Assembly: GCA_016868785.1 (NCBI GenBank)
Contig: VGFS01000022.1
Span: 1 to 36,636, forward strand
DNA: 36,636 nt
Direction of reading: 5' to 3'
Source: Bacteroidota bacterium
Lineage (GTDB): Bacteria > Bacteroidota > Bacteroidia > NS11-12g > UBA955
A program made the position numbers and the translations under genes. The notes beneath the pieces are model-generated. The model ran no database searches, was not told where the DNA came from, and was given only the letters and a program-made list of their open reading frames with translations. Shown here in pieces: positions 3,112 to 23,614 of this stretch (positions are counted from its first letter, which is position 1; each line of letters starts with the position of its first letter).

Positions 3112-6100
3112 ATGAAGCTTTTTATTACTCGAATAGGAAAGAAGTCAGCTTGGTTTTTGTTGATTTTTTTGGTGGCGCTGGCTCCGGCATTGAAAGCAAC
3201 CGACTATTACGTTTCCAAGTCAGGAAATGATGCCAACAGTGGTCTTTCGGTTGCTTTGGCAAAGCTGACGATTACGGCGGCTGCCAATACGGCTGCGGCG
3301 GGGGATGTGATTTACATTGCCACGGGGTATTACGCGGAAGTTGTAAGTCCTGGAAAGTCTCTGAAGTTTTTGGTCGACAGTGTACAGGTGAATGAATTGA
3401 CGATGAACGTTGCTGGAATCACGTTGGACATCGACGGGAACGCCAACGAGAAAACGTTCAACATCAAAACCAAGTTAACGCTGACTGATGGGATTGTAAA
3501 ACTGGGTACCTCTTTGGCGGCATTTCGCGCTTTGGATGGTTGTACCGTAGGTGCGGGCACCAAAACGAGTTATGTAGATGGTGCGGTTCATATTGGTTTA
3601 ACCAACGGATCTACCAGCATGACATTCCCCGTAGGTGCTGGTACAGATTACCGTCCGGTGTCTATCTCATTCAGTAAATCCAATGCAAACTTGACCTATT
3701 TTTGGTTTCAAGCCAAAGCAGGTGCGGCGGCAGGTAATGGTTCGTTGCCATCGGGAATTCGCAATTATTCAAAAATCAATCACTTTGTGGGTGGCACAGT
3801 GCCCGCTTTGGCGAGCAATGCCTCGAATTTTACGGTTACGTTGCGTTATGATTCAGTGACCACCGATGATGGGGTCTATGAAACATCCACATTGCGTGTT
3901 TTGGGCTATACGGCCTCATCTACTTGGGCCAATTTGAGTGGTACGGGTAGTGCCACCCGCAAGGGACAGATTCAATCGAGTAGTATGTCGACCTTGGGCG
4001 GTACTTTTGCCTTGGCCTGTGCTTTCAAAACACTGACTGCCACCGAGCGCATGACAGGATTGAATTTGCTCGGGGATTTGGAGCCCCACGCGGCGTTCAA
4101 ATTGACCGGACGTTGTTCTGCAGATTCATTTAAATTCACTGATTTAACCCGCAGTAAAACGGCAATCATCTCTTATAAGTGGAATTTTGGTGAGGCTGGT
4201 GCTGCAACCAACAGTCAAACTACCCGCAACGCGGTACACAAATATGCTACTTCTGGAACTTACCGGGTGAGCTTCGTAACATTGAATGCGGATAACTTTT
4301 TGGACTCTTGGGTACAGATGGTAACGGTTTTTGCGACGCCTTTCATTTTGAAGACGGTAAACAATGTTTGTATTGGAGAACAAACGACCATGACAGATTT
4401 TTCGCAGGCCAACGGAGAGACAATCTCTGGTTGGAACTGGAATTTGGGCGATGGTCCTCCGGCAACCATCAAAACGTCAAAAACCATTACCCATACCTAT
4501 GCAAATCCTGGCGCCTATAAGGTTTTGCTTCGTGTAACAACCGTCAATGCGTGTATTTCGATAGATACATTTGATTATATCGTACACGATAAACCCGCTC
4601 CAGCGTTTGATCCCAAAGATGTTTGTTTCGGTCAATCAACTTTGTTTGATGATCAAAGTACGGTGGCGGCACCTGATTTGATTGGGTCACGCAAATGGGA
4701 TTTTGGAGATGGTTTTACCAGCACGAATAAAACGATTAGTCGTAAATACGCCGCTCCAGGTTTGTACAATGTGAAGTTGATTTCCTATTCGAATTACCAA
4801 GGTCAAAAAGGTGCGTGTAGGGATTCAATTACCAAACCTGTGCGTGTGTTTGCATTGCCTGATGTGAGTTATTCTCAATCGCATACTTGTTTTGAAGAGG
4901 AGACGGTATTTACCGACAATACCAACATCATCAATCCTGATTACGCAGCTACTTACACTTGGCAGTTTGGTGACGGCGTTACCGATACGACCATGTATGG
5001 TGCTCGCTACACCTATACCGCCGCAGGTGCTTATAAAACCCGTTTGACCGTTGTGTCGAATGCGGGATGTGTGGGCACCGACACCCTAACTGTATATGTC
5101 CATCCCAAGCCGGTGGCAGGTTACACCGTGAAAGAAGTTTGCTTTGGAGATTCAACAGCGTTTACCCGTAAAGGGCAAATGAATCCCAATTTGGAAGCGA
5201 AGTTGGCCTACAGTTGGTTGTTTGATGGAAGCATCGCTTACTTTACCAAAACGCCAAAAATTAAGTTTGCGGCACCCGGTACTCATACAGTTGTATTATT
5301 GGCCAAAACCAACGAAGGTTGTATGGACTCGGCGGTTGGGAATGTTCGCTCATTTTTCATGCCCAATCCACAGTTCACTTTGGATAATACTATTACACCC
5401 AATGACTCTATACAGTGTTTCAAAAACAACCTGTTTACATTCAATTTTTCTGTGAGCATTGATCCAGCCGATACCCTATTGAATTCGGCTTGGAGTTGGG
5501 GCGATAAGCAGACCGAAATGCCGGCGAGCAATACAACCCACAGCTATGCAGACACAGGTGTGTATACTGTGAAGTTGTATGGTTGGACGATCAATGGATG
5601 TGCCGATAGTATGGTGAAGCAATACGTGGTAAATCCATCGCCCAACGCGAAGTTCTATCAAGAGGGTACTTGTGTTCCCGATACCATTCGATTCTACGAT
5701 ACCGCCTCTACTTCGACCAGGCCCATTGCCATTCGCAAATGGAAGTTTGGCACCGGAACTGTTTTTGGGGCAGCACCGAAATCGAATTTCTACACCACTT
5801 CAGGTCCGCACGATGTTACATACATCATCGAAAACGATTTAGGGTGTGCGGATTCGTTGACGCAGACCTTCAACTTCATTGTGAAACCTACCATCGCATT
5901 CAATTACTCTGGAAGTATGCCATTGTGTAAAGGGGATAGCATCGACATAACTGCGGGTGGTGCAGACAGTATCAAATGGTTGTGGAATGGAGATACAACA
6001 CGCACACAGAAGTTGTTCGGAAAAGGTTGGTACAAGGTGAAAGGAACAACGGGTATTTGTACTACGATAGATTCAGTGCAGGTGTTGGCATTCCCCACAG

Positions 6101-6597
6101 CAAACATTGTTATTTACAGCGACACCACCATTTATCGCGGTAAAAAAGTAAACTTGTGGGCAACTGGGGCCGATAATTATTGGTGGACCGATAGTTCAAC
6201 CCTAAACAAAGGAACAGGAGATTCGGTGATCGCACGTCCGCTCGTAACCAGAATGTACTATGTATCTGGTACAGATTCCAATGGCTGTAACGACCTGGAT
6301 TCCGTGCTTGTTACTGTGGTAGATCCTCCGTTGGTGAAAATTCCCAACTTGATTACACCAAATGGTGACAATGAAAATGATTTCTGGGATTTGACGGAGT
6401 TGGCAGATATTTTCTTGTTCGATATTCGCATCAGTGACCGTCAAGGAAAATTGGTATACAATACAGCAAACTATCAAAACGACTGGAATGCTGTAGACAA
6501 TCAAGGAACAGATTTGCCGCCGGGAATCTATTTCTATTACATGAAAAACCGGTTTAACAACGAAGAATTCAGAGGTTACATTCAAGTAATTCGATAA
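3112..6597 (+). CDS. Secreted PKD-repeat protein with type-B T9SS sorting domain
   Basis: This 1161-residue protein is a predicted type IX secretion substrate. It has a signal peptide of about 28 residues (ending near LKATDYY), then a stretch starting YYVSKSGNDANSG that resembles the opening of right-handed beta-helix (DUF1565/pectin-lyase-like) proteins, up to about residue 190. A beta-rich region follows. About seven PKD domains lie between residues 324 and 925, each with a WxFG-DG-like strand and paired cysteines. Next come Ig-like segments (926-1070) and a gliding-motility-type C-terminal domain (1073-1161; ITPNGDNENDFW ... LPPGIYFYY). Type-B domains of this kind direct export through T9SS and surface attachment. 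The PorP/SprF gene begins 6 bases downstream, the usual arrangement for a cargo and its dedicated outer-membrane partner. The role of the exposed part (adhesin or matrix protein) is inferred. Confidence 0.9.
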   Translation: MKLFITRIGKKSAWFLLIFLVALAPALKATDYYVSKSGNDANSGLSVALAKLTITAAANTAAAGDVIYIATGYYAEVVSPGKSLKFLVDSVQVNELTMNVAGITLDIDGNANEKTFNIKTKLTLTDGIVKLGTSLAAFRALDGCTVGAGTKTSYVDGAVHIGLTNGSTSMTFPVGAGTDYRPVSISFSKSNANLTYFWFQAKAGAAAGNGSLPSGIRNYSKINHFVGGTVPALASNASNFTVTLRYDSVTTDDGVYETSTLRVLGYTASSTWANLSGTGSATRKGQIQSSSMSTLGGTFALACAFKTLTATERMTGLNLLGDLEPHAAFKLTGRCSADSFKFTDLTRSKTAIISYKWNFGEAGAATNSQTTRNAVHKYATSGTYRVSFVTLNADNFLDSWVQMVTVFATPFILKTVNNVCIGEQTTMTDFSQANGETISGWNWNLGDGPPATIKTSKTITHTYANPGAYKVLLRVTTVNACISIDTFDYIVHDKPAPAFDPKDVCFGQSTLFDDQSTVAAPDLIGSRKWDFGDGFTSTNKTISRKYAAPGLYNVKLISYSNYQGQKGACRDSITKPVRVFALPDVSYSQSHTCFEEETVFTDNTNIINPDYAATYTWQFGDGVTDTTMYGARYTYTAAGAYKTRLTVVSNAGCVGTDTLTVYVHPKPVAGYTVKEVCFGDSTAFTRKGQMNPNLEAKLAYSWLFDGSIAYFTKTPKIKFAAPGTHTVVLLAKTNEGCMDSAVGNVRSFFMPNPQFTLDNTITPNDSIQCFKNNLFTFNFSVSIDPADTLLNSAWSWGDKQTEMPASNTTHSYADTGVYTVKLYGWTINGCADSMVKQYVVNPSPNAKFYQEGTCVPDTIRFYDTASTSTRPIAIRKWKFGTGTVFGAAPKSNFYTTSGPHDVTYIIENDLGCADSLTQTFNFIVKPTIAFNYSGSMPLCKGDSIDITAGGADSIKWLWNGDTTRTQKLFGKGWYKVKGTTGICTTIDSVQVLAFPTANIVIYSDTTIYRGKKVNLWATGADNYWWTDSSTLNKGTGDSVIARPLVTRMYYVSGTDSNGCNDLDSVLVTVVDPPLVKIPNLITPNGDNENDFWDLTELADIFLFDIRISDRQGKLVYNTANYQNDWNAVDNQGTDLPPGIYFYYMKNRFNNEEFRGYIQVIR

Positions 6598-6603
6598 ACA
6601 GAG

Positions 6604-7941
6604 ATGAAAAAAATCACAATCGTTTCAACATTGTTGCTTTCCATTGGCGGTCTGTCGGCCCAAATGGGTGCGAAAATTGATCAGTTCTACATGGATTATT
6701 CGCTGATCAATCCAGCGGCCATGAATACCCATGACCAAGGTCATGTGACATTGTTGTATAACAAAATGTTCTCCGCAGTGCCAGGGTCGCCCCAGACCAC
6801 GGTGTTGAATGTAGTGATGCCAGTACCTTCAAAAAACACAGGATACGGATTGTATTACATGCGAGAGCGCGTAGGGTTTTCAGAAATGCACAATGCTTAT
6901 GCTTCTTACGCATACTCATTCCCAATTGCGGGCAGCACCAATTTGAATTTGGGGATGAGCGTAGGGGCTTTGTCGCAGAATTTCGATATGTCGAAAGCCA
7001 TCTACATTAGCAGCAATGACCCAATCATCAAATCTTTGACGCTTACGCCCCCCGTTACCCGGGCTGATTTGCGCGCTTCTGCGTTTATCAATGGAGAGAA
7101 GTGGTTCGCAGGATTTGCGATTTCTCGATTGAGTAAGCCTCGTTTCGATTATGTTTACTACAACTACACCGCTGCTTATCAACTGCAGTCGCAAGGTAGT
7201 TTGATGTTCGGTTATAACATCGATTTGGGCGACGACGTGATCTTGAAGCCTGCACTATATGCCTCGGCTTACGACTTTAATTATTTCCGCTTGCAGTATA
7301 ACGTATCGATGTGGTACCAAGACAAATTTTGGATTGGTGTTGGCGGTAATGATATCGGACAGATTGGTGGGAACATCGGTTTCTCGCCTCAGGATGATAT
7401 CAAAGTTTCATATTCTTACAACACGCCTACGGGTGGACAAAGGATTGCCTTAGGGAATTCCCATGAATTTCATACGTTCGTTGGTTTTGCAGCTTTGGGT
7501 GGCGGTGCGCGGTCTGGATCTGTTAGAGACGATGATGGTGCTGATTTGAATAGTGCCAATGGCGGTGAGGGAGACGATGGTGAAGGCGATGGCAATGGAG
7601 GGTTTGGGATGAGTAAAGAAGTTACCATTACCAGTTTGGAGGATATGAAGAGCATGGGTACGGGCAATGATACTTCGAAAATCAAATTGCCAGCCATTGA
7701 AAAGGTAAAGCCAGGGCCAGGATTTTACCTGGTAGCGGGTTTGCATAGTTCTGAAGCAAAAGCCAACAAACAGATCAAGGATTTGTATAAGAAGGGTGTG
7801 TTGTCGTACAAGATTTACGACCCTAGCAATAAGAGTTACTATGTGTATTTGAAGGATTTCGCTTCTGAAAAAGATGCGAACCGTGGAATATTTTATTATG
7901 AAGCGTCTGTTCCACAGGTGTGGATTAGGGAAGTGAAATAG
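6604..7941 (+). CDS. PorP/SprF-family outer membrane protein with SPOR-like C-terminus
   Basis: This 445-residue protein has a signal peptide (ending LSAQ near residue 20) and a PorP/SprF barrel to about residue 296, with the family's N-terminal pattern (DQFYMDYSLINPAAM). In known systems such proteins are needed for secretion or surface anchoring of the neighbouring CHU_C-domain protein. Residues 297-368 are a Gly/Asp/Glu-rich linker and a charged segment. Residues 369-445 (GFYLVAGLHSSEAKAN ... YYVYLKDFASEKDANRGIF) have the two-repeat layout of a SPOR peptidoglycan-binding domain. Plain PorP/SprF proteins are usually around 300-350 residues, so the C-terminal addition is notable. It is co-transcribed with the PKD gene and is followed by a strong bidirectional terminator. 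Confidence 0.85.
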   Translation: MKKITIVSTLLLSIGGLSAQMGAKIDQFYMDYSLINPAAMNTHDQGHVTLLYNKMFSAVPGSPQTTVLNVVMPVPSKNTGYGLYYMRERVGFSEMHNAYASYAYSFPIAGSTNLNLGMSVGALSQNFDMSKAIYISSNDPIIKSLTLTPPVTRADLRASAFINGEKWFAGFAISRLSKPRFDYVYYNYTAAYQLQSQGSLMFGYNIDLGDDVILKPALYASAYDFNYFRLQYNVSMWYQDKFWIGVGGNDIGQIGGNIGFSPQDDIKVSYSYNTPTGGQRIALGNSHEFHTFVGFAALGGGARSGSVRDDDGADLNSANGGEGDDGEGDGNGGFGMSKEVTITSLEDMKSMGTGNDTSKIKLPAIEKVKPGPGFYLVAGLHSSEAKANKQIKDLYKKGVLSYKIYDPSNKSYYVYLKDFASEKDANRGIFYYEASVPQVWIREVK

Positions 7942-10678: not shown

Positions 10679-10804
10679 TCCGCAGTGGTGGAAATTAGAC
10701 GGTAAAGTGTCTGCGTGATGGTCTTGTTGATGGAAATTCCCGATTCAACAACTTGAATTATGCCAAATGATACGCATTTCAAAACCCAGTTGGCAACATT
10801 TTCG

Positions 10805-10835
10805 TTGTATTACTTGTCTGTTGGTTGTAAATTTG
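10805..10835 (+). promoter_or_regulatory. Promoter of the second PKD/CHU_C gene
   Basis: TTG at 10805-10807, a spacer of exactly 20, and TAAATTTG at 10828-10835 give a full Bacteroidota promoter. The ATG at 10851 is 15 bases beyond the -7 element. This decides the start codon, since the frame is open further upstream through the promoter. Confidence 0.7.
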
Positions 10836-10850
10836 GCAATTAAATTGGAA

Positions 10851-12971
10851 ATGCTCAGAAAACTGCTGCTATTGATGTGTCTGAATGCGTGTGTCGCAGT
10901 GTCTCTCTTCGGAGCCGAGCCCACAACTCCAGCTTCCAACTTGGCCGCCGGTACCATCACCTGTAAGTCCGTTCAGTTAACATGGACGTCAGGAAACGGA
11001 TCATGGCGCCTGGTTTTGATGAAAGAAGCGAGCGCTGTGAATGCGACCCCATCCGATAATTCATCGTATTTGAGTAACAGTGTTTTCGGAACAGGTCAAG
11101 AATTAGGTACGGGCAATTTTGTGGTATTCAATAACATCACCAACAACTGCAACGTAACCGGATTAAAACCCAATACTACTTATTACGTAACGGTTTTTGA
11201 ACACGATGGCATGGGCCCAGACTACCTTACATCGAAGTCGGCCACGGTCAGTTTTAAAACCAACAACTTGAACATGGGTTTTACCTACAAAGGTACCGTG
11301 GACAGCTGTGAGAAGACCAACAAGATTACCTTTACCAACACCAGTATTGCCACTTTCGGTTGGATCAAATACACCTGGATTTTTGGCGATGGCACCCAAG
11401 ACACGGGTGTTAATATCTCCCATGTCTATATCAAGGGTGGTAATTTTACCGTAAACTTGGTTGCGTCACCTGCGCTTGGGTGCGTGGATATCGCTACCTC
11501 TACCAAATCAATTTTCATTGTGCCACGACCTGTGAGCAAACCCTTTGAAAAGAATGCAGATACGGTACAGTGTTTTGAAGGACATATTTTCAAACTCGAC
11601 GACAATACGCAATTGGCAAAAATTCCCAAATGTGCTTACATCCGCACTTGGTACTTTGCCGATGACGACAGTGCTACCATCCCCAACCCCAGTAAATCAT
11701 ACGCAAAACCGGGGAAATATCGCATTCACTACAAAAGCGAAACACTTTACGACAACAAACCCACGGGTTGTACCGATACCGCCAACATGTGGGTGAGGGT
11801 GGTGCCCAGTCCATCTAGTGGGATTTGGATCAACGACAGTATTCAGTGTTTGGCTGGTAACAAGTTTGACTTTGACAACAAATTCCCTGGATTGGTCTCC
11901 TTTCGATGGGATTTGGGTGGAGGAATCACGGGTATAACCAAAACCATCTCTCGTAGTTTTGCGGCTGTGGGTGATTACCCAATTATCCATGAAGCAACGA
12001 GTTCAGACGGTTGTTCCGGTATCGATACCGTTATTGTGAAGGTAAAACCGAATGTGAACCCCTCATTTACCGGTTTGCCAGCAACTGCATGTCAAGGCGG
12101 TCCGTCCATTACATTGACGCCCACAACTGCAGGCGGTACTTTTTACGGACAGTCATTTACGGGCAATTCCTTTTCGCCCACATCAACCGGAATGGTGAAA
12201 ATTAAATACGTTGTGGCTGATCAATATTGTCCCGACAGCTCAACACAAACCATCACCATTCAACCCAAGCCTACCTTGAATTTGGGTAAAGATACCACGT
12301 TGTGCGATGGTGCAAGTACAGATTTGACGATTACAATTCCGGGTACGGTGCTTTGGAACGACGGCACTTCTACGAACGTGAGAACCGTTGCCAGCGCCGG
12401 GACCTATGGTGCTGTTGTGAACAACAACGGGTGCATCGCATCAGATTCAATTAACATCCGCGTGAATTCAACCCCGATGGTAACATTGCCTATGGACACC
12501 ATCCTTTGTCAAGGTTCCATCGTGAAATTGGTGGCTCCTTACATGCCAAACACAAACATATTGTGGAATACGGGCTCTACCGATACTGTGATTTATGTGA
12601 GCGCAGCTGGAACTTATTCGGTAACGGTTACCAATGCTTGTGGCAGTGCCTCTGACGATGTTACTGTGAATTTGATGATGGGAGATTGTGATTTGTTTAT
12701 CCCAACGGCGTTTACGCCCAATGGCGATGGTCGCAACGAATCTTTCAAAATTTTTGGCAGAGGTGCCAACCCAACCCTTTTCCTCATCTATAATCGCTGG
12801 GGTGAGAAAGTATTCGACTCTCAGTCTGCGGGTTCCTACGAATGGGATGGATACTATAAGGGCGCCGTTTGTCTTGAAGGCATCTATTCCTACGTTTATC
12901 GCTATGAATTGAAGACAGGCACGCGTATCAGACGTAAGACCATTAATGGTACCGTGTTGCTGATGCGATAG
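10851..12971 (+). CDS. Secreted FN3/PKD protein with type-B T9SS sorting domain
   Basis: This 706-residue predicted surface or secreted protein has a signal peptide (MLRKLLLLMCLNACVAVSLFG). A fibronectin-III-like module follows (about 25-140; VQLTWTSGNGSW ... LKPNTTYYVTVFEHDG), then at least three PKD-like domains (about 143-435; YTWIFGDGTQDTG in the first, degenerate WYFADDD and RWDLGGG in the next two). Three cysteine-containing Ig-like repeats come next (about 436-625; LGKDTTLCDG, LPMDTILCQG), and last a CHU_C gliding-motility C-terminal domain (about 628-706; PTAFTPNGDGRNESFKIFGRG). The C-terminal domain marks it as T9SS cargo. Unlike the 3112 gene, no PorP/SprF partner follows. It is divergent from ftsX, and the ligand is unknown. 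Confidence 0.88.
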   Translation: MLRKLLLLMCLNACVAVSLFGAEPTTPASNLAAGTITCKSVQLTWTSGNGSWRLVLMKEASAVNATPSDNSSYLSNSVFGTGQELGTGNFVVFNNITNNCNVTGLKPNTTYYVTVFEHDGMGPDYLTSKSATVSFKTNNLNMGFTYKGTVDSCEKTNKITFTNTSIATFGWIKYTWIFGDGTQDTGVNISHVYIKGGNFTVNLVASPALGCVDIATSTKSIFIVPRPVSKPFEKNADTVQCFEGHIFKLDDNTQLAKIPKCAYIRTWYFADDDSATIPNPSKSYAKPGKYRIHYKSETLYDNKPTGCTDTANMWVRVVPSPSSGIWINDSIQCLAGNKFDFDNKFPGLVSFRWDLGGGITGITKTISRSFAAVGDYPIIHEATSSDGCSGIDTVIVKVKPNVNPSFTGLPATACQGGPSITLTPTTAGGTFYGQSFTGNSFSPTSTGMVKIKYVVADQYCPDSSTQTITIQPKPTLNLGKDTTLCDGASTDLTITIPGTVLWNDGTSTNVRTVASAGTYGAVVNNNGCIASDSINIRVNSTPMVTLPMDTILCQGSIVKLVAPYMPNTNILWNTGSTDTVIYVSAAGTYSVTVTNACGSASDDVTVNLMMGDCDLFIPTAFTPNGDGRNESFKIFGRGANPTLFLIYNRWGEKVFDSQSAGSYEWDGYYKGAVCLEGIYSYVYRYELKTGTRIRRKTINGTVLLMR

Positions 12972-13010: not shown

Positions 13011-13041
13011 TTTATCCTCCGCGTTGGGTGTTGTAATTTTG
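13011..13041 (+). promoter_or_regulatory. Putative purL promoter
   Basis: TAATTTTG at 13034-13041 is a perfect -7 match. At a spacer of 20 the -33 position holds TTT (13011-13013) instead of TTG. The purL ATG at 13048 lies 6 bases after the last G, so the message should have almost no leader. A small inverted repeat, GTACC-ACAT-GGTAC (13041-13054), spans the start codon. Confidence 0.5.
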
Positions 13042-13047
13042 TACCAC

Positions 13048-15273
13048 ATGGTACATCAACCCGCCACCGTAGAACAAGCCAAACAGTTAGGTCTGTTGGA
13101 AGAAGAGTTTCACAAAATTTGCGACATCCTCGGTCGTCAACCCAACTTTACTGAAATTTCCATTTACTCCGTGATGTGGAGCGAGCACTGTAGTTATAAA
13201 AACTCCATTGTTTGGTTGAAAACATTGCCCAAAAGCGGTTCTAAAATGTTGGCTGAAGCGGGTGAAGAAAATGCGGGTTTGGTGGATATTGGTGATGGGC
13301 TTGCCTGTTGCTTCAAAATTGAAAGCCACAACCACCCCAGTGCCATTGAGCCTTATCAAGGTGCGGCAACCGGTGTTGGTGGGATCAACCGCGATATTTT
13401 CTCCATGGGTGCAAGACCCATCGCCCAGTTAAATTCACTGCGTTTTGGTAACATCGCAACCGATCGTACTCAGTGGTTGGTTAAAGGTGTGGTAAAAGGC
13501 ATCGGCGATTACGGCAATGCGTTCGGTATCCCAACGGTTGGGGGTGAAGTATATTTCGATGACTGCTATGAGCAAAACAACTTGGTGAATGCCATGAGTG
13601 TGGGTATTGTGGGTGTGGGAAAGAGCATTTCTGCTGGGGCAGGTCCTGCCGGAAATCCGGTTTATATTTTCGGTTCTGCCACGGGTAAAGACGGTATTCA
13701 TGGTGCTGCGTTTGCTTCTAAAGACATGAGCGAAGACAGTATTTCTGACTTGCCATCCGTGCAGGTGGGTGATCCTTTCTGGGAAAAGTTGATTTTGGAA
13801 GCCAGCATGGAAATCATCGAAGCCGGCGCTGTGGTAGGTATGCAAGACATGGGTGCTGCGGGTATTACTTGCTCAACCAGTGAAATGAGTGCCAAAACTG
13901 ATGTGGGTATGGATGTGTGGTTGGACAAAGTGCCGATGCGACAGCCCGACATGAAAGGTTGGGAATTGTTGTTGAGTGAGAGTCAAGAGCGTATGTTGGT
14001 GATCATCGAAAAGGGTCGCGAAAAAGAGGTTGAGACCATCTTGGAAAAGTGGGATTTGACGTTTTCGCACATCGGAATGGTGACGGATACTAAGCATGTT
14101 CGTTACTTTATGGGCGATGTTTTGGAGGCTGATATTCCTGCGGAATCATTGGTTTTGGGTGGTGGTGCACCTGTGTATCGCAGAACCTGGAAAGAGCCCG
14201 AATATTTGAAACAGATTGCTGCGTTTGAATTGAATCATATCGCCGACTTGAATTTGGCTGAAGCCAAGCAAGCAGCCATTCAATTGTGCAACGAGCCCAA
14301 CATTGCGAGCAAGCGATGGATTTATGAGCAATACGATTCTATGGTGGGTACCATCAATGAATCCACCAATTTGCCGTCCGATGCAGCTGTAGTGAAAATT
14401 GTGGGTACGGAGCGGAGTTTGGCTTTGACGGTTGATTGCAACAGTCGATATGTATACGCTGATCCCAACAAAGGAACCCAAATCGCTGTGTCTGAGGCAG
14501 CGCGAAATATCCGATGCAGTGGAGGTGTCCCAACGGCCATCACCAACTGTTTGAATTTTGGTAACCCTTACAACGAAGAGGTTTATTATCAATTCAAGAA
14601 CGCCATTGAGGGAATGGGCGAGGCTTGTCGCAAGTTTGATACGCCCGTTACTGGCGGAAACGTGAGTTTTTATAACCAAAGCACCAACGGGCAGGCCGTG
14701 TATCCAACCCCTACCATTGGTATGGTGGGTATCATTGAGAAACCTGAGCACCGCATGAGTGTGCCTTTCAAGGCTGCGGGTGATGCCATTGTTTTACTGG
14801 GAAATACGCGCAATGATTTGGGCAGTTCTCAATATTTGGCCAAAGTAAAAGGGGTGAGCCACAGTCCTTGTCCTTCGTTTGATTTGGACGAGGAATTCGC
14901 ATTGCATCAGTTGCTGGAGACTTTGGCAAAGGAACATGCGGTTGCTTCTGCCCATGATGTGAGTGAAGGTGGTTTGTTTGTGACTTGTTTAGAGTCAGCG
15001 ATGGCTGCTGGATTGGGCTTCGACTTGTGTACTGAGCGCGGTTTGCGTTTGGATGCTGGACTTTTCGGTGAAAGCCAAAGCCGGGTGGTGGTATCGGTTT
15101 CACAAAGTGGATTAGACCATTTGATGACGTTGGCTGCTGCTGCGGGCGTTTCGGCCACACATGTAGGAACCGTTCTTGGCAAAGCCGAAGTGATTGTTAA
15201 TGGGGAATCGTGGGGTGGTATGTCGGCGTTTGCCCAGCCATATGCTTCTGTGATTGCTTCTTACATGAATTGA
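13048..15273 (+). CDS. purL: Phosphoribosylformylglycinamidine synthase subunit PurL
   Basis: PurL makes FGAM from FGAR, ATP and ammonia in step four of purine synthesis. At 741 residues this is the short, Bacillus-type subunit, which works with separate PurQ (glutaminase) and PurS; neither is in the window. Diagnostic motifs are YSVMWSEHCSYKNS near residue 40, including the conserved catalytic histidine, IESHNHPSAIEPYQGAATGVGG, GTPTVGGEV-like FGIPTVGGEVYFD, MQDMGAAGITCSTSEM and the second-half VTGGNVSFYNQS and SAHDVSEGGL. The ATG at 13048 is preferred over the upstream TTG because the -7 element overlaps that longer version. It leads a likely four-gene operon. Confidence 0.96.
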   Translation: MVHQPATVEQAKQLGLLEEEFHKICDILGRQPNFTEISIYSVMWSEHCSYKNSIVWLKTLPKSGSKMLAEAGEENAGLVDIGDGLACCFKIESHNHPSAIEPYQGAATGVGGINRDIFSMGARPIAQLNSLRFGNIATDRTQWLVKGVVKGIGDYGNAFGIPTVGGEVYFDDCYEQNNLVNAMSVGIVGVGKSISAGAGPAGNPVYIFGSATGKDGIHGAAFASKDMSEDSISDLPSVQVGDPFWEKLILEASMEIIEAGAVVGMQDMGAAGITCSTSEMSAKTDVGMDVWLDKVPMRQPDMKGWELLLSESQERMLVIIEKGREKEVETILEKWDLTFSHIGMVTDTKHVRYFMGDVLEADIPAESLVLGGGAPVYRRTWKEPEYLKQIAAFELNHIADLNLAEAKQAAIQLCNEPNIASKRWIYEQYDSMVGTINESTNLPSDAAVVKIVGTERSLALTVDCNSRYVYADPNKGTQIAVSEAARNIRCSGGVPTAITNCLNFGNPYNEEVYYQFKNAIEGMGEACRKFDTPVTGGNVSFYNQSTNGQAVYPTPTIGMVGIIEKPEHRMSVPFKAAGDAIVLLGNTRNDLGSSQYLAKVKGVSHSPCPSFDLDEEFALHQLLETLAKEHAVASAHDVSEGGLFVTCLESAMAAGLGFDLCTERGLRLDAGLFGESQSRVVVSVSQSGLDHLMTLAAAAGVSATHVGTVLGKAEVIVNGESWGGMSAFAQPYASVIASYMN

Positions 15274-15283
15274 TATTTTTCTG

Positions 15284-16420
15284 ATGACAACCTTCAGCTA
15301 TTGGGAGCAACAGGGTTTGCAGGGGGTTGATTGGGTAGTTGTAGGGGCGGGATTGGTTGGGCTGCAATCGGCCCGTTGTCTGAAGTCGGCTTTTCCCGAT
15401 GCAAGGGTGGTGGTTTTGGACGACCATGCGATGAGCAATGCGGCAAGTTTGCGCAATGCTGGGTTTGCCTGTTTTGGAAGCGCGGGGGAATTACTCGATG
15501 AAATTAATAGAACCTCTGAGTCTGAGGCGTTGTCGCTCTATGAAAAGCGCTTTTTGGGGATTCAGCGATTGATGCAGCGATATGGTCCGGACCGTTTGGG
15601 TTTTGAATCTACCGGGGGCATGGAAGTGTTTTCTAAGGCTGAGTCGGGGAATGCGCATCGGATTATCGAGGCGTTGCCATACTTGAATCAATTGTTGTTG
15701 TCGGTGCAGCCGTCGGGGGCATTTCACGTTTGCGACACCCTGCCCACGGGTATGGACGTCTATGAAAAAGGCATCATGGCGCCCGCCGAAGGCGGGATTC
15801 AAACACATTGGCTTTATCGGGCGGTGCGCGAGGATGCCATTGCACAGGGGGTTGAGATTTACGAGGGGATGCGGGTGGTGGAATGGGATGAGTCATCTAC
15901 GGGGGTTGCGGTGATTTTGGAAAATGGCTGGTCGATTTCGGCGCAGCATTTATTGATATGCACCAATGGGTTTACCAAGCAATTGCTGCCTGAGGTGTCT
16001 GTGGCGCCGGCGCGCGGACAAGTATTTGTGACAGCGCCTTTGGAGGATTTGCCGTTTAGGGGGATTTTTCATGCCGATCAGGGATACATTTATTTCCGTT
16101 CGTTAGAAAACCGTTTGCTGATTGGCGGCGCGCGGAATTTGGATTTTGCGGGGGAGGAAACGTTTGATATGTCGGTCACTGCGCAGTTTGAGGACCATCT
16201 GCAAAACTATGTCAATACGGTCGTGTTGCCGGGAAGGTCGGTTGATTTTGAATATCGATGGTCGGGGATTATGGGGATGGACAACAACCGAAATCCCATC
16301 ATTGGCTGGCACAGCAACCGGGTTTGTTTGGCGGTGAGGATGGGTGGAATGGGAGTGGCTTTGAGTTCTTGGGTTGCCGAGGAGGTGGTGAGGGTGGTGC
16401 GGGGCGATGTGGGAATTTAG
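15284..16420 (+). CDS. FAD-dependent oxidoreductase, DAO family
   Basis: This 378-residue protein of the D-amino-acid-oxidase-like (DAO) superfamily has the FAD-binding Rossmann motif VVVGAGLVGLQSARCL at residues 18-33, followed by a VVVLDD strand end that binds the ribose. Central and C-terminal parts fit the fold: GIQTHWLYRAVREDA, HLLICTNGFTKQLLPEV and, near the end, YRWSGIMGMDNNRNPIIG. It probably oxidises an amine or amino acid, but the substrate cannot be read from the sequence. It begins 10 bases after purL and precedes polX by 26 bases, so it is probably co-transcribed; no functional tie to purine synthesis is evident. Confidence 0.87.
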   Translation: MTTFSYWEQQGLQGVDWVVVGAGLVGLQSARCLKSAFPDARVVVLDDHAMSNAASLRNAGFACFGSAGELLDEINRTSESEALSLYEKRFLGIQRLMQRYGPDRLGFESTGGMEVFSKAESGNAHRIIEALPYLNQLLLSVQPSGAFHVCDTLPTGMDVYEKGIMAPAEGGIQTHWLYRAVREDAIAQGVEIYEGMRVVEWDESSTGVAVILENGWSISAQHLLICTNGFTKQLLPEVSVAPARGQVFVTAPLEDLPFRGIFHADQGYIYFRSLENRLLIGGARNLDFAGEETFDMSVTAQFEDHLQNYVNTVVLPGRSVDFEYRWSGIMGMDNNRNPIIGWHSNRVCLAVRMGGMGVALSSWVAEEVVRVVRGDVGI

Positions 16421-16446
16421 GAACTTTGTTGTTGATTTGAAGGAAC

Positions 16447-18123
16447 ATGGCGGTTGATAATCATGAAATTGTAAGGGCTTTGCAGTTGTATGCCAGTCTG
16501 GCGGAATTGCATGAGGAGAACCCATTTAAATACAAGGCCTTTGCATCTGGGGCTTTTAATTTGCGAAAAATCAAAGAGCCGCTTGGGGATTTGCAAGAAT
16601 CGCAATTGTTGCAGATTCCGGGGGTGGGAAAATCTGTGGCCAAGGCCATTGTGGAATATGGTGCTACCCGACAGTTTCCGGCCTTGGACGCGTTGCTTAC
16701 TATAACTCCGGTTGGACTTATTGCAATGTTGGGGGTGAAGGGGTTGGGGCCCAAAAAGGTGCGGTTGATTTGGCAAGATTTGGGGATCGACACGGTGGAG
16801 GAGTTGTTTGATGCTTGCAGACAAAATCGTTTGGTGGAGGTGAGTGGTTTTGGATACAAAACCCAGCAGTCGATTTTGGATGCCATTTCTTTTTCATACG
16901 CGGCGCGCGGTAAATTTCACTTGGCGCGGGTGATGCCCTATGCCGAAGCATTTTTGCAGGGGTTGAATGCGTTGATGGGGGGGGAGAAGCATGGATTTAC
17001 CGGCGATTATTATCGCAAGAGTGATGTGATTGAGTCGTTGACATTGTTGACCAGTGCGATGGAGTTTAGCGGGATGTTGGAGGGGGATTGGCAGGAGGTC
17101 GCCGCTGCAGGCGGCGCCCCTTTTACCGGGTGGAATTTAGACGAACAAACGCAACAATGGCGTCATGAGCAAGGGTTTGTGTTGCATATTCAGGTGGTGG
17201 CATTTGCCGATTTTGACCGCCTTTTGTTTGAACAGGGCGCGGCGGCGAGGCACCTAGCATTGATGGGTTATCAGTCTGCGGATTGGCAGGGCAACGAGCG
17301 AGATACGTATGCCGCCAAACAAATTCCGTTTGTGGTGCCGAGCCGCCGCGAAGGACATCGAGAATTGGATCGACCCGTAAAAGAAGAAGAATTGCTGCAG
17401 TTTTCAGACCTTAAAGGGGTGTTGCACAACCATACTACCTATTCGGATGGACTCAACTCCGTGGAGGAAATGGCCCTCTATGCGATGGAAATGGGGATGG
17501 AATATTTGGGGATTTGCGATCACTCTAAAACGGCGGCCTATGCGCGTGGATTGCAAGTTGAACGGGTATTGCAGCAATTTGAAGAAATCGATGTCCTCAA
17601 TAGCCAATTGTGGCCGTTCAAGATATTTAAAGGCATAGAAAGCGACATCCTAAACAATGGCGAGCTGGATTACGAACCGGAGATTTTGTCTCAGTTCGAC
17701 ATCGTAGTAGCGTCAGTGCACAGCAACCTCGGTATGACCGAAGAAAAGGCGATGCAACGACTGATAACGGCCATTGAAAATTCCTATACCACCATTTTGG
17801 GACATCCCACCGGCAGGTTGCTGCTCATGAGAGAAGGCTATCCGCTAGATCATCACAAAATCATCGATGCGTGCGCGGCCAATGGTGTGGCGATTGAGCT
17901 GAATGCGAATCCGTATCGGTTGGATATCGATTGGCGTTACATCGATTATGCCATGGAGAAAGGGGTGATGGTGTCGGTGAATCCAGATGCCCACGAAAAA
18001 ATGGGGTATTGGGACATGCAATTTGGTGTTTTGAGCGGACAGAAAGGCGGGTTGCTGAAATCCCAAACCCTCAATGCGTTGAATTTGGTGGAGTTTGAAG
18101 CCTATCTTGCAAAGCGGAAATGA
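16447..18123 (+). CDS. PolX-family protein: degenerate polymerase domain plus PHP nuclease domain
   Basis: This 558-residue protein has the PolX architecture. Residues 1-150 hold helix-hairpin-helix motifs (IPGVGKSVAKAI near 57, LGVKGLGPKKVRLI near 98). Residues about 150-310 are the polymerase palm and thumb. Residues about 318-558 are a PHP domain with its metal-binding motifs intact: LHNHTTYSDG (H327, H329), ICDHSK (D358, H359), GIESDI, ASVHSN, GHPTGR and NPDAHE. The polymerase site is not intact. The usual GSxRRG...GDxDLL reads GDYYRKSDVIESLTLL, so both Asp positions become S197 and T199, and the third Asp becomes H247. The protein is therefore probably a 3'-5' exonuclease or phosphoesterase for DNA repair without polymerase activity. 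It is the third gene of the purL operon. Confidence 0.9.
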   Translation: MAVDNHEIVRALQLYASLAELHEENPFKYKAFASGAFNLRKIKEPLGDLQESQLLQIPGVGKSVAKAIVEYGATRQFPALDALLTITPVGLIAMLGVKGLGPKKVRLIWQDLGIDTVEELFDACRQNRLVEVSGFGYKTQQSILDAISFSYAARGKFHLARVMPYAEAFLQGLNALMGGEKHGFTGDYYRKSDVIESLTLLTSAMEFSGMLEGDWQEVAAAGGAPFTGWNLDEQTQQWRHEQGFVLHIQVVAFADFDRLLFEQGAAARHLALMGYQSADWQGNERDTYAAKQIPFVVPSRREGHRELDRPVKEEELLQFSDLKGVLHNHTTYSDGLNSVEEMALYAMEMGMEYLGICDHSKTAAYARGLQVERVLQQFEEIDVLNSQLWPFKIFKGIESDILNNGELDYEPEILSQFDIVVASVHSNLGMTEEKAMQRLITAIENSYTTILGHPTGRLLLMREGYPLDHHKIIDACAANGVAIELNANPYRLDIDWRYIDYAMEKGVMVSVNPDAHEKMGYWDMQFGVLSGQKGGLLKSQTLNALNLVEFEAYLAKRK

Positions 18124-18151
18124 GAAGAAGCTCATACAGACGAATTGCGTC

Positions 18152-19168
18152 ATGAAAAAAATCTTGGTCATCAGGTTAAGTAGCATTGGCGATGTGGTTT
18201 TGACCGCGCCAATTTTACGTGCGATGCGCTTGCAGGCCGGGATGGAGGTGCATTTGCTGACCAAACCCGGAATGGGCGAATTGATGAGGGGCGGGGATGC
18301 GGTTGATAAATTTTACACTTGGGGCGAAACGGGTTTGTGGGGGCAACTGAAGGCCGAAAAGTACGATGGTATTCTGGATTTGCACAAAAATTGGCGGTCG
18401 TTACAAGTGTTGTTGCGATTGTTGTATTTGGATACGGCGCACGCGTTCTCATTGGATTGGCCGGTGGCTACGTACGATAAAAAGCGATTTCAGCGTGCGC
18501 TGTTTGTGAAAACCAAATCGCCCAGGTTTGAAGTATCTCATGTTCAGGAGCGATACTTGTCGGCGGCCAATGCTTTGGTTCAACGATTGACGAATGATCG
18601 CGGTTTTAAACTGTCTGTGGTTGATTTCAGGGGTGGATTGCCTGAGTTTGCGCGGCTGAATGCTACTCAAGAATATGGGGTTGCGATTCTCGGTGGGACC
18701 TATGCAACAAAAAAAATTCCGGTTTCGGTTTGGCAGAATGTATTTCGGTGCGATGCACGCAAGTGGGTGTTGATTGGTGGAAAAAATGAAACCCCTGTGG
18801 CGGAGGCATTGGTGTCGGAGTTTGGCGATCAGTTGCACAATGAAGTTGGTTCATATGGGTTGTTGGATTCGGTGCATTGTATTGCCGGGGCAGCCCTTGT
18901 GGTTGGCGGGGATACGGGGTTTAGCCATGTTGCGGCGGCCTACGGCCGCCCGCTACTCGTGATTTGGGGAAATACCCATCCAGGATTGGGTTTCGCTGCA
19001 GGAAAAAACAACCCAAAAGTGTTGCATTTGCTGCCGCAAAATTTGTCGTGCCACCCCTGTACAAAACTTGGATTTGATGACTGTCCGAAAGGCCATTTAC
19101 GTTGCATGAATGATTATTCTGCCTTGGAAATCAAATTATTGATGCAAAAATTGCAAGCCTTCTCATAG
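18152..19168 (+). CDS. Glycosyltransferase family 9 (heptosyltransferase-like)
   Basis: This 338-residue GT9 enzyme probably transfers a heptose or similar sugar from a nucleotide donor during lipopolysaccharide core synthesis at the inner face of the membrane. The N-terminal RLSSIGDVVLTAPILRAMR motif and the C-terminal donor-site motif VVGGDTGFSHVAAAYGRP are both clear. A four-cysteine segment near the end (CHPCTKLGFDDCPKGHLRC) is seen in many Bacteroidota relatives and could bind metal (inference). The frame is open back to 18095, overlapping polX, but MKKILVIRLSSIGD at 18152 is the natural start, 28 bases after polX. Confidence 0.92.
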   Translation: MKKILVIRLSSIGDVVLTAPILRAMRLQAGMEVHLLTKPGMGELMRGGDAVDKFYTWGETGLWGQLKAEKYDGILDLHKNWRSLQVLLRLLYLDTAHAFSLDWPVATYDKKRFQRALFVKTKSPRFEVSHVQERYLSAANALVQRLTNDRGFKLSVVDFRGGLPEFARLNATQEYGVAILGGTYATKKIPVSVWQNVFRCDARKWVLIGGKNETPVAEALVSEFGDQLHNEVGSYGLLDSVHCIAGAALVVGGDTGFSHVAAAYGRPLLVIWGNTHPGLGFAAGKNNPKVLHLLPQNLSCHPCTKLGFDDCPKGHLRCMNDYSALEIKLLMQKLQAFS

Positions 19169-19235
19169 GAAGGTAGTTAACTGTTATTTTTTCCTTAATT
19201 TCGCGGTTCTTATTTTAGTATAGTAATAGATAGTG

Positions 19236-22200
19236 ATGAAAACCAATAAAACCGTAGTAGGATTTTCGATTGTACTGGCGCTAGCCTGTGTGTTCCAATT
19301 GTCGTTTACTTGGAAAGCCCAAGGATTCGAAAAAGAAGCCAAGGCTTTTGCTGCCAAAGTGGCCGACAAAGGAGGTGACTCTAAAGAGGCTTACCGTCGT
19401 TACATCGACAGTCTCGGAAACGATGAAATTTACAATGTAGGCTTGGCCGGATACACCTATTTTGAGTGTAAGCAACGTGAGGTAAACCTTGGTTTGGACT
19501 TGCGCGGCGGTATGAACGTAATCTTGGAAGTAGACAAAGGTGCGGTAGTTCGTGTTTTGTCGAACGATACCAAAGACAAAGATTTGAATCGTGCCATCAA
19601 CGAAGCCAATGTTGATGTGAGAGATAAAGGTGCAGATTTCGTTGACGCTTTTGTTGCCAATTTCAAAAAGAACAACCCCAGCCGCAATTTGGCGAATTTG
19701 TTCATCAAAGGAAATAAGAGCGTCATTCAATCAAATAGCAATGAAGCCGAAGTGGTGAATTTCTTGAGAACAGAAACCACCAGCGCCATAGATCGCGTAT
19801 ATGAAGTAGTTGAAAAACGTATCAACCAATCAAACGTAACTCAGCCAACCATCCAAAAGATCGACGGTGGTCGTATCAGTGTTGAATTGCCTGGTGTCGA
19901 CAACCCACGTCGTATGGAAGAATTGGTGGAGAAAAGTGCGAAATTGGAATTCTACGAAGTTTATGGGAACGATGGTCAGCGCAGAGATGGTACCCGCATT
20001 TTGAATACTTTGTACAAAGCCAGTAAGTTGGCGCCTGTTGCTTCCAAAGAGGAAACCATCGATACAACTTCTCAAGATTCAGTAGTAGCCTCAACTGTGG
20101 CTGCTGCTACACCTGCGGTTGCACCTGCTGCTGCCCCAGCCGCCGACGGTCCAGTTGCCGTTGATAGCCCAAAAGTTGCATCGAAAGAGAAGAAAGATAA
20201 AAAAGACGAAGCCAATGGCAGTCCTTTGGCTAAAGTATTGCGTTCGTTCGGAAACGACGGTCCAGGTTCAGCGGTGGCCGTAGTGAAAAAGGCGGATCGT
20301 GCCTTGTTGACCAAGATGATGGAAGACGAGCGTTATGCGGCGGTATTGCGTTTGGAGAGCGCCAAGTTGGCATTCAGCGCCAAGCCCCGCGATTACGAAG
20401 CCGATGGCAAAGAAGCTGTTAACTCAGACGAGTATTTTGTGTACTTCTTGAAGTTGGATCGAGAAGGGAATGCTGCCTTGTCAGCGGAAGAAGAAAACAT
20501 CATCTCGGATGCCCGTGTGAATACTTCTCCAACCGGAGAATTGGAAGTGTCTATGGAAATGACTGCCAAGGCTGGAACCCAGTGGGCTCAGGTAACAGGT
20601 CGTAACATTGGAAAATACATCGCAGTTGTGTTGGATGAACGTGTGTATTCAGCGCCTGTGGTGAATCAAAAGATTAGTGGTGGAAACAGCCAAATCACCG
20701 GTAACTTCGATATCCGTGAAGCCAACGACTTGGCCAACGTTTTGAAAGCGGGTAAATTGCCTGCGCCTGCTAAGATTGTTGCGAGTGAGCAAGTGGGTGC
20801 GTCTTTGGGACAAGCATCAATCACCAACGGTCTGAATTCGTTGATGTTTGGTTTCATTGCAACCATCTTGTTCATGATCCTTTATTACAGCCGCGCGGGT
20901 TGGATGGCCATCGTTGCCGTATTGGGTAACGTCGTCTTGATTATGGGTGTGTTGGCGAGCTTGGGTGCTGCCTTGACATTGCCCGGTATGGCTGGTATCA
21001 TCTTAACGGTGGGTATGGCTGTAGATGCGAACGTATTGATTTACGAGCGTATCAAAGACGAATTGGAAAATGGCAAAGGCATGAAGTCTGCCATCGCTGA
21101 TGGTTTCAAACACGCCTTGAGCGCGATCATCGATTCAAATATTACCACCTTGTTGGCTGGTTTCATTTTGACGTTCGCTGGTGCGGGTCCTGCTTACGGA
21201 TTTGCCGTGATCTTGGTAATCGGTATCTTCAGTTCAATGTTTACTGCTTTGTTCATTACGCGTTTGTTGTTAGACCGTCGAGCCGACAAAGGATTGGACA
21301 TCAAATTTGATGCGCCATGGAACAAAGGTTTCATGAAGAATTCAAACATCGACTTCGTGGGTAACCGCAAGAAATATTATATCGCATCGGCATTGATGAT
21401 TGTTGCGGGTATTGCAGCGTTTGTTGCCAAGGGTGGAATCAGTACTGGTATCGATTTCAAGGGCGGTCATGCCTATGTAATCCAATTCGATGCTCAGAAA
21501 AACTATCAATCAGAAGCCATCAAAATGGCTTTGGATAACAATTTGAAAGAGTCTAGCAACGAAGTGAAAACCTTTGGTAGCGCTGGTCAGTTTCGTATTG
21601 TTACTACTTATAAGATTGACGCAGAAGGTCAAGCGGCCAGAGATTCTGTCCGTGCCGATGTTTTGGGCGCCTTGAAAGGGTTCGACATGGTAGGTGAGGA
21701 TCCAGTCATGTCTACTTCAAAAGTGGGTGCCGCCATTGCAACAAGCACTCGTGATAGGAGTGGTTTCTTGGTTATTTTGACCGTAGTGGGAATCTTCTTG
21801 TACATTGTATTCCGATTCCGTAGCGTGGCTTACGGTATGGGTGCCACCATCGCATTGTTGCACGACGTTTTGGTTGTGTTGTCGATGTTCGCCATTTTGG
21901 ATGGTGTTGTGCCTTTCCCTACCGATTTCGATCAACATTTGATTGCCGCTTTGTTGACCTTGTTGGGTTATTCAATCAACGATACGGTAATTGTGTTTGA
22001 CCGTATTCGTGAGTTCTTGACAAACAACAAGGGTGAGCGTTCAGATGCCAAATTGATTAATATGGCTATTAACGGTACATTGTCGCGGACCATTATCACT
22101 GCAGCAACGGTGTTCATGGTTGTGTTGATCTTGTTCTTGTTCGGCGGTGATGCCTTGAAAGGCTTCTCATTGGCCTTGTTGATTGGTGTAATTGTAGGTA

Positions 22201-22268
22201 CTTATTCTTCAATTTGTATTGCAACCCCAATCGTTGTGGACTTCTCAACCAAGAAAAAACAATCGTAA
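19236..22268 (+). CDS. secDF: Protein translocase subunit SecDF (fused)
   Basis: SecDF uses the proton gradient to pull exported proteins through SecYEG at the periplasmic side. This fused form has 1010 residues and 12 predicted membrane helices. The SecD half has VNLGLDLRGGMNV near residue 87, the P1 domain with TGRNIGKYIAVVLDERVYSAP, and helices from about 530. The SecF half has ISTGIDFKGGHAYV near 733. An Ala/Pro-rich then Lys-rich linker (about 276-330) interrupts the SecD periplasmic domain. The ATG at 19236 is chosen over the GTG directly before it. Codon use is strongly biased (TTG, GGT, CGT, AAC), which suggests high expression. It ends in a good terminator. Confidence 0.97.
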   Translation: MKTNKTVVGFSIVLALACVFQLSFTWKAQGFEKEAKAFAAKVADKGGDSKEAYRRYIDSLGNDEIYNVGLAGYTYFECKQREVNLGLDLRGGMNVILEVDKGAVVRVLSNDTKDKDLNRAINEANVDVRDKGADFVDAFVANFKKNNPSRNLANLFIKGNKSVIQSNSNEAEVVNFLRTETTSAIDRVYEVVEKRINQSNVTQPTIQKIDGGRISVELPGVDNPRRMEELVEKSAKLEFYEVYGNDGQRRDGTRILNTLYKASKLAPVASKEETIDTTSQDSVVASTVAAATPAVAPAAAPAADGPVAVDSPKVASKEKKDKKDEANGSPLAKVLRSFGNDGPGSAVAVVKKADRALLTKMMEDERYAAVLRLESAKLAFSAKPRDYEADGKEAVNSDEYFVYFLKLDREGNAALSAEEENIISDARVNTSPTGELEVSMEMTAKAGTQWAQVTGRNIGKYIAVVLDERVYSAPVVNQKISGGNSQITGNFDIREANDLANVLKAGKLPAPAKIVASEQVGASLGQASITNGLNSLMFGFIATILFMILYYSRAGWMAIVAVLGNVVLIMGVLASLGAALTLPGMAGIILTVGMAVDANVLIYERIKDELENGKGMKSAIADGFKHALSAIIDSNITTLLAGFILTFAGAGPAYGFAVILVIGIFSSMFTALFITRLLLDRRADKGLDIKFDAPWNKGFMKNSNIDFVGNRKKYYIASALMIVAGIAAFVAKGGISTGIDFKGGHAYVIQFDAQKNYQSEAIKMALDNNLKESSNEVKTFGSAGQFRIVTTYKIDAEGQAARDSVRADVLGALKGFDMVGEDPVMSTSKVGAAIATSTRDRSGFLVILTVVGIFLYIVFRFRSVAYGMGATIALLHDVLVVLSMFAILDGVVPFPTDFDQHLIAALLTLLGYSINDTVIVFDRIREFLTNNKGERSDAKLINMAINGTLSRTIITAATVFMVVLILFLFGGDALKGFSLALLIGVIVGTYSSICIATPIVVDFSTKKKQS

Positions 22269-22289
22269 TTCAATCACTTCGAACTTTCG

Positions 22290-22322
22290 AAAAGGCGGAG
22301 TGATTTTCACTCCGCCTTTTTT
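22290..22322 (+). terminator. Rho-independent terminator of secDF
   Basis: A 13-bp perfect stem (AAAGGCGGAGTGA, loop TTT, TCACTCCGCCTTT) extends by one more A:T pair and is followed by a run of T. It lies 21 bases after the secDF stop codon. Confidence 0.92.
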
Positions 22323-22351
22323 GTTATCAACTAGTATCGCTCCTATTTTAT
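22321..22351 (+). promoter_or_regulatory. Putative lysA promoter
   Basis: TTG at 22321-22323, a spacer of 20, and TATTTTAT at 22344-22351 approximate the Bacteroidota consensus with two mismatches in the -7 element. The -33 TTG is formed by the end of the secDF terminator's T-run. The ATG is 36 bases further on. Confidence 0.35.
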
Positions 22352-22387
22352 ATACTTAGCAAAATCATTGAAGATCTTTTTTAAATC

Positions 22388-23614
22388 ATGTCAAACCAAT
22401 CCATTCCACAGCCTCTTTTACAGTCTATCGCAGAAACTTATGGTACACCGGTGTATGTCTACCATGCCGAAACCATTCAATCGCAGTATAAACGATTGTT
22501 GCATGCATTTCCCAATACCAAAGTGAAATTGCATTACGCCCTGAAAGCATTGAATAATGTGAACATTTTGCGATTGCTCAAAGCCGAAGGTGCAGGATTG
22601 GATGCCGTTTCTATTCAAGAGGTGCAGCTGGGATTGCGCGCAGGATTTGAACCGCATGAAATCATGTATACCCCTAACTGTGTAGACTTCGCAGAAATAC
22701 AAGAAGCGGTGGATTTGGGAGTGCACATCAACATCGACAACATCGCCATTTTGGAGCATTTTGGTCACGCCTATGGTGCTTCCGTGCCCTGTTGTATCCG
22801 CTTGAATCCGCATATTATGGCGGGTGGACATAGTCATATATCGGTAGGTCACATTGATTCAAAGTTTGGTATATCGATCTATCAATTGCGACATGTTGTA
22901 CGTGTGGTTGAATCCTTAAACATACGTGTGAATGGATTGCACATGCACACGGGTAGCGATATTTTGGATGCAGAGGTCTTTCTGCGCGGCGCGGATTTAT
23001 TGTTTGAGGCCGCAAGGAGTTTTCCCAATCTTGAATTCATGGATTTTGGATCGGGCTTTAAAGTGGGTTATAAAACCGACGACATCGTAACCGACATTGA
23101 GGAAATCGGGACGAAGATTTCACAGGCTTTCGCAGAATTTTGTCAGGAATACGGCCGAGAATTGGAATTGTGGTTTGAGCCCGGAAAGTTTATCGTGTCT
23201 GAATCGGGTTCCTTATTGGTAAAAGCGAACGTGATCAAGCAAACAACATCTACCGTTTTCGTGGGTGTGGATTCTGGACAGAATCATTTGATACGACCCA
23301 TGTTTTACGATGCCTATCACCACATTGAAAACATCTCGAATCCAGAAGGTGCTTCCCGTTTGTATAGCATTGTTGGGTATATCTGCGAGACCGATACATT
23401 GGGATATGACCGCAAATTACAAGAGGTGAGGGAAGGGGATGTGCTGCGTATATACAATGCAGGTGCCTACGGCTTCAGTATGAGCAACAATTACAATGCG
23501 CGTTTACGTCCTGCCGAAGTATTGGTGAAAGATGGAAAGGCCCACCTCATTAGAAAGCGCGAGGTGCTGGATGATATTATTCGCAATGAGGTAGAAATTC
23601 CCGAATTGATATAA
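22388..23614 (+). CDS. lysA: Diaminopimelate decarboxylase
   Basis: LysA decarboxylates meso-diaminopimelate to L-lysine, the last step of lysine synthesis. The 408-residue protein is a fold-type III PLP enzyme. The PLP lysine is K53 in HYALKALNN, followed by GAGLDAVSIQEVQ. HMHTGSDI and DFGSGFKVGY lie in the barrel, EPGKFIVSESGSLL binds phosphate, CETDTLG supplies the active-site Cys, and YNAGAYGFSMSNNYN is the C-terminal signature. The gene stands alone between two terminators. Related decarboxylases act on ornithine or carboxynorspermidine, but the motifs fit LysA best. Confidence 0.94.
   Translation: MSNQSIPQPLLQSIAETYGTPVYVYHAETIQSQYKRLLHAFPNTKVKLHYALKALNNVNILRLLKAEGAGLDAVSIQEVQLGLRAGFEPHEIMYTPNCVDFAEIQEAVDLGVHINIDNIAILEHFGHAYGASVPCCIRLNPHIMAGGHSHISVGHIDSKFGISIYQLRHVVRVVESLNIRVNGLHMHTGSDILDAEVFLRGADLLFEAARSFPNLEFMDFGSGFKVGYKTDDIVTDIEEIGTKISQAFAEFCQEYGRELELWFEPGKFIVSESGSLLVKANVIKQTTSTVFVGVDSGQNHLIRPMFYDAYHHIENISNPEGASRLYSIVGYICETDTLGYDRKLQEVREGDVLRIYNAGAYGFSMSNNYNARLRPAEVLVKDGKAHLIRKREVLDDIIRNEVEIPELI

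Follow-up and report, generated by a model that had tools for sequence, protein, structure and literature searches.

A noncanonical PolX of a Bacteroidota bacterium with an altered polymerase site and an intact PHP nuclease site

The 36,636-nucleotide stretch of a Bacteroidota bacterium analysed here (from contig VGFS01000022.1, hereafter the window) encodes a PolX protein that is very probably a noncanonical, polymerase-dead PolX, in which the PHP nuclease is kept and the palm and fingers serve as a structural linker (Table 1). It adds one more ordinary example to a published class that is common in Bacteroidota and is not new; the novelty implied by an earlier reading of this DNA, made without database searches (the sequence-only reading), was misplaced, most Bacteroidetes PolXs being noncanonical in the same way (PMC9226535). 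The class was defined by Prostova et al. (2022) by an altered catalytic triad, an altered dNTP-binding motif and an intact PHP domain, with one to three of the catalytic acidic residues substituted and with short fingers and/or palm as frequent, not obligatory, features (PMC9226535). It makes up 27.5% of prokaryotic PolXs, includes 302 triad variants and has its main cluster in Bacteroidetes and Deinococcus-Thermus (PMC9226535).

Table 1. Features of the PolX gene, in coordinates of the window.
Feature	Position	Strand	Evidence
Noncanonical PolX-PHP protein, 558 aa	16447..18123	+	ORF; Pfam; NCBIfam; PDB matches
8-kDa and thumb (HhH) region, residues 1-150	16447..16896	+	HHH_8, HHH_5; dN/dS
Degenerate palm, residues 151-251	16897..17199	+	Low identity; palm strands and helices still present in the model
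S197 and T199 codons, positions of catalytic Asp 1 and 2	17035..17043	+	Alignment
H247 codon, position of catalytic Asp 3	17185..17187	+	Alignment
Shortened fingers with decayed dNTP-binding motif	17200..17349	+	Span of 50 residues; EQGAAARHL
PHP nuclease domain, residues 320-556, nine metal ligands intact	17404..18114	+	Pfam; alignment

The protein has Pfam matches to HHH_8 (residues 4-74), HHH_5 (94-147) and PHP (326-486), and none to a polymerase palm or fingers domain. The top full-length NCBIfam model is that of PolX (NF006375), whose score of 374 bits lies under the cut-off of 426 bits, and the full-length PDB matches all correspond to PolX proteins, among them those of Deinococcus radiodurans (2W9M) and Thermus thermophilus (3AU2).

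The motif GDYYRKSDVIESLTLL begins at residue 186 (window position 17002) and LHIQVV at residue 246. In a MAFFT alignment, S197, T199 and H247 (window positions 17035, 17041 and 17185) share their columns with the three Asp of the DDD triad in T. thermophilus PolX. A second MAFFT alignment, to which 26 canonical full-length PolXs with DDD from other families within the phylum had been added, left this column assignment unchanged. The three acidic palm residues that characterize a canonical PolX are thus absent and replaced by STH, at the very residues to which the sequence-only reading had assigned the lost aspartates (S197, T199 and the His of LHIQVV). The first motif reads GDYYR vs GSARR. That reading had overlooked two additional signs of decay, in the dNTP-binding motif and in the length of the fingers, which are shortened. 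The finger motif is EQGAAARHL, compared with YLTGSKAHS in Thermus: AA replaces GS, A replaces K, and L stands at the final position, where Pol beta has Asn and Thermus has Ser; changes of GS to AA and of K to A and a hydrophobic final residue are substitutions reported for noncanonical PolXs (PMC9226535). The fingers span 50 residues vs 75-76 in the canonical PolXs of the phylum, and the palm core, with 66 residues vs 63, is not shortened. Since the same triad loss is found in 66 related genes, it is not an effect of chance or of sequencing, and the replacement of the catalytic triad is confirmed as real.

All nine metal ligands of the PHP site (HHHEHHEDH) are present, namely H327, H329, H359, E398, H425, H453, E484, D514 and H516; they are constant in all 69 aligned rows, except that Thermus, alone among them, has Gln for the first His. 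The HhH regions are likewise intact in the alignment, and the earlier statement that these motifs and every PHP metal motif are kept was correct. That the protein would be unable to add nucleotides and would have an active nuclease is well supported by homology with published proteins: the PolXs of D. radiodurans (triad AEE) and Deinococcus gobiensis (ARE) are polymerase-dead and are strong Mn2+-dependent 3'-5' exonucleases, and a polymerase activity once reported for the former was later ascribed to possible contamination (PMC9226535). By analogy, the HhH domains of the 8-kDa and thumb region would bind nicked, gapped or broken DNA, and the PHP domain would then trim or clean 3' ends as a Mn2+ 3'-5' exonuclease, possibly with 3'-phosphodiesterase and AP endonuclease activities as well; the palm and fingers, with catalytic metal and dNTP binding gone, would survive as a structural linker. 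The sequence-only reading had proposed a DNA-guided nuclease or phosphoesterase that is dead as a polymerase; the dead polymerase and the retained nuclease match both the sequence and the published Deinococcus biochemistry, and the term "DNA-guided" is unsupported. We rejected a guided nuclease: neither a module for guide loading nor a linked source of guides was found, and what is known of the activity fits an ordinary Mn2+-dependent 3'-5' exonuclease.

A more specific role, in which the window PolX would be the sole AP endonuclease encoded in the genome, is suggested by the fact that neither XthA above cut-off nor Nfo was found there. However, xth is present above cut-off in 45 of 58 relatives. 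In relatives it sits a short way past a conserved gene (L085 and L087 for comparison), and contig C37 of the present genome ends at base 19464, within that same conserved gene (L093). Because this contig end falls inside the gene neighbouring the usual location of xth, the gene most likely lies in the gap, and its absence from the genome is probably due to the assembly; we therefore dropped the idea of a sole AP endonuclease as very unlikely.

PolX has been linked to non-homologous end joining (NHEJ), which is encoded by about 49% of PolX-bearing Bacteroidetes genomes (PMC9226535). Ku was not found in the present genome, which rules out a role of the window PolX as an NHEJ partner, nor was it found in 57 of the 58 genomes of the relatives search, a count that includes this genome and in which some genomes are incomplete. 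PolX is encoded by 33 of the 58, and in 32 of these 33 Ku was not found; NHEJ therefore cannot explain the retention of PolX in this clade. Because the family keeps PolX although Ku is absent, we put at about even the chances that its polymerase-dead PolX works in NHEJ-independent repair, in general 3'-end or AP-site processing. The retention of PolX by a Ku-less family is a small new point and speaks for a benefit of the nuclease beyond NHEJ. No repair gene occurs in the PolX neighbourhood, which consists instead of purine, lysine, secretion and glycosyltransferase genes in the order PurL, DAO-type oxidoreductase, PolX, heptosyltransferase-like GT9, SecDF and LysA (window 13024-23614); this order is common to much of the family and was not found around more distant Bacteroidota PolX homologues. 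Elsewhere in the window (3112-7941 and 10767-12971) are genes for PKD-rich proteins that bear type IX secretion sorting domains; one of these proteins adjoins a PorP/SprF protein.

The sequence-only reading had proposed an alignment of Bacteroidota homologues at the three triad positions as a check: among 67 proteins (66 homologues and the window PolX), a set chosen by similarity to the window PolX and hence a biased sample of the phylum, none has three acidic residues at these positions, 14 have two, 47 have one and six have none. These 67 proteins carry 44 different triads with constant PHP ligands, and the number of triad variants indicates that the polymerase site is drifting. Even a neighbour 91% identical to the window PolX has TVD vs STH, and the triads within the genus comprise STH, TVD, RSD, HVE and NVG. 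In some PolXs of the same genus (L025, L027, L036 and L038-L040), about 21 to 45 extra residues are inserted in the decayed palm; the window PolX lacks these insertions. A residual polymerase, whose metal site would be rebuilt by other acidic residues (D193, E196 or elsewhere in the palm), could be envisaged from the acidic residues close to the motif (SDVIESLTLL) and from the one or two acidic residues still found at triad positions in 61 of the 67 proteins; yet the triad varies even within the genus, the dNTP-binding motif and the fingers are degraded too, and the AEE homologue is inactive (PMC9226535), so that we regard such an activity as extremely improbable. In a tree based on the HhH and PHP regions, in which long branches make the placements of Thermus and Deinococcus uncertain, the window PolX falls within a supported clade (100/98) of altered Bacteroidota proteins, to which the phylum's canonical PolXs do not belong.

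The AlphaFold model of the window PolX (mean pLDDT 90.5, pTM 0.79) places S197 and T199 at the start of a strand (198-202) and H247 in another (245-250), as expected for the palm sheet, and its best Foldseek matches are all PolX proteins (TM 0.79 to 3AU6); the placement of the triad is based on the alignment, the secondary structure of this model and Foldseek together. The palm shares 20% of its residues with that of Thermus PolX and 66% with those of the genus, where the PHP domain reaches 91%. Pairwise dN/dS within the genus, to be used for ranking and not as precise values because dS is high in several pairs, is about 0.02-0.06 for the PHP domain, mostly 0.02-0.1 for the 8-kDa and thumb region, about 0.09-0.16 for the palm and 0.12-0.36 for the fingers. 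The palm thus appears to be relaxed yet still under purifying selection, much looser than that on the PHP domain, which is consistent with a structural role. The earlier proposal that the polymerase fold persists only as a scaffold is plausible on account of this looser selection, with the qualification that the palm continues to be constrained. That the old active site has acquired a new role in catalysis or ligand binding, as this purifying selection might suggest, is scarcely credible, since there is no conserved replacement residue at the three positions, the palm insertions of same-genus relatives lie in the same region and fold constraint alone explains the selection.

The window PolX resembles the noncanonical class in its domain order, altered triad, decayed dNTP-binding motif, short fingers and HHHEHHEDH site, and differs in its STH triad from the AEE type of D. 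radiodurans (PDB 2W9M) and the ARE type of D. gobiensis. Much of the main cluster of this class consists of Bacteroidetes proteins; the clade that hosts the window PolX is nearly devoid of Ku. With the canonical PolXs of T. thermophilus and Bacillus subtilis it has in common the overall architecture and the PHP domain, together with the structural similarity to 3AU6, whereas their polymerase triad and dNTP-binding motif are both lost. The documented trend that the nuclease of bacterial PolX outlasts the polymerase is thereby confirmed, in agreement with a 2026 survey in which the PHP domain was better conserved than the polymerase site (PMC12926913). The actinobacterial "PolX-like" proteins (PMC12926913) similarly combine a PHP domain with the lack of a working polymerase, but their polymerase region has been wholly lost, whereas the window PolX keeps its palm and fingers.
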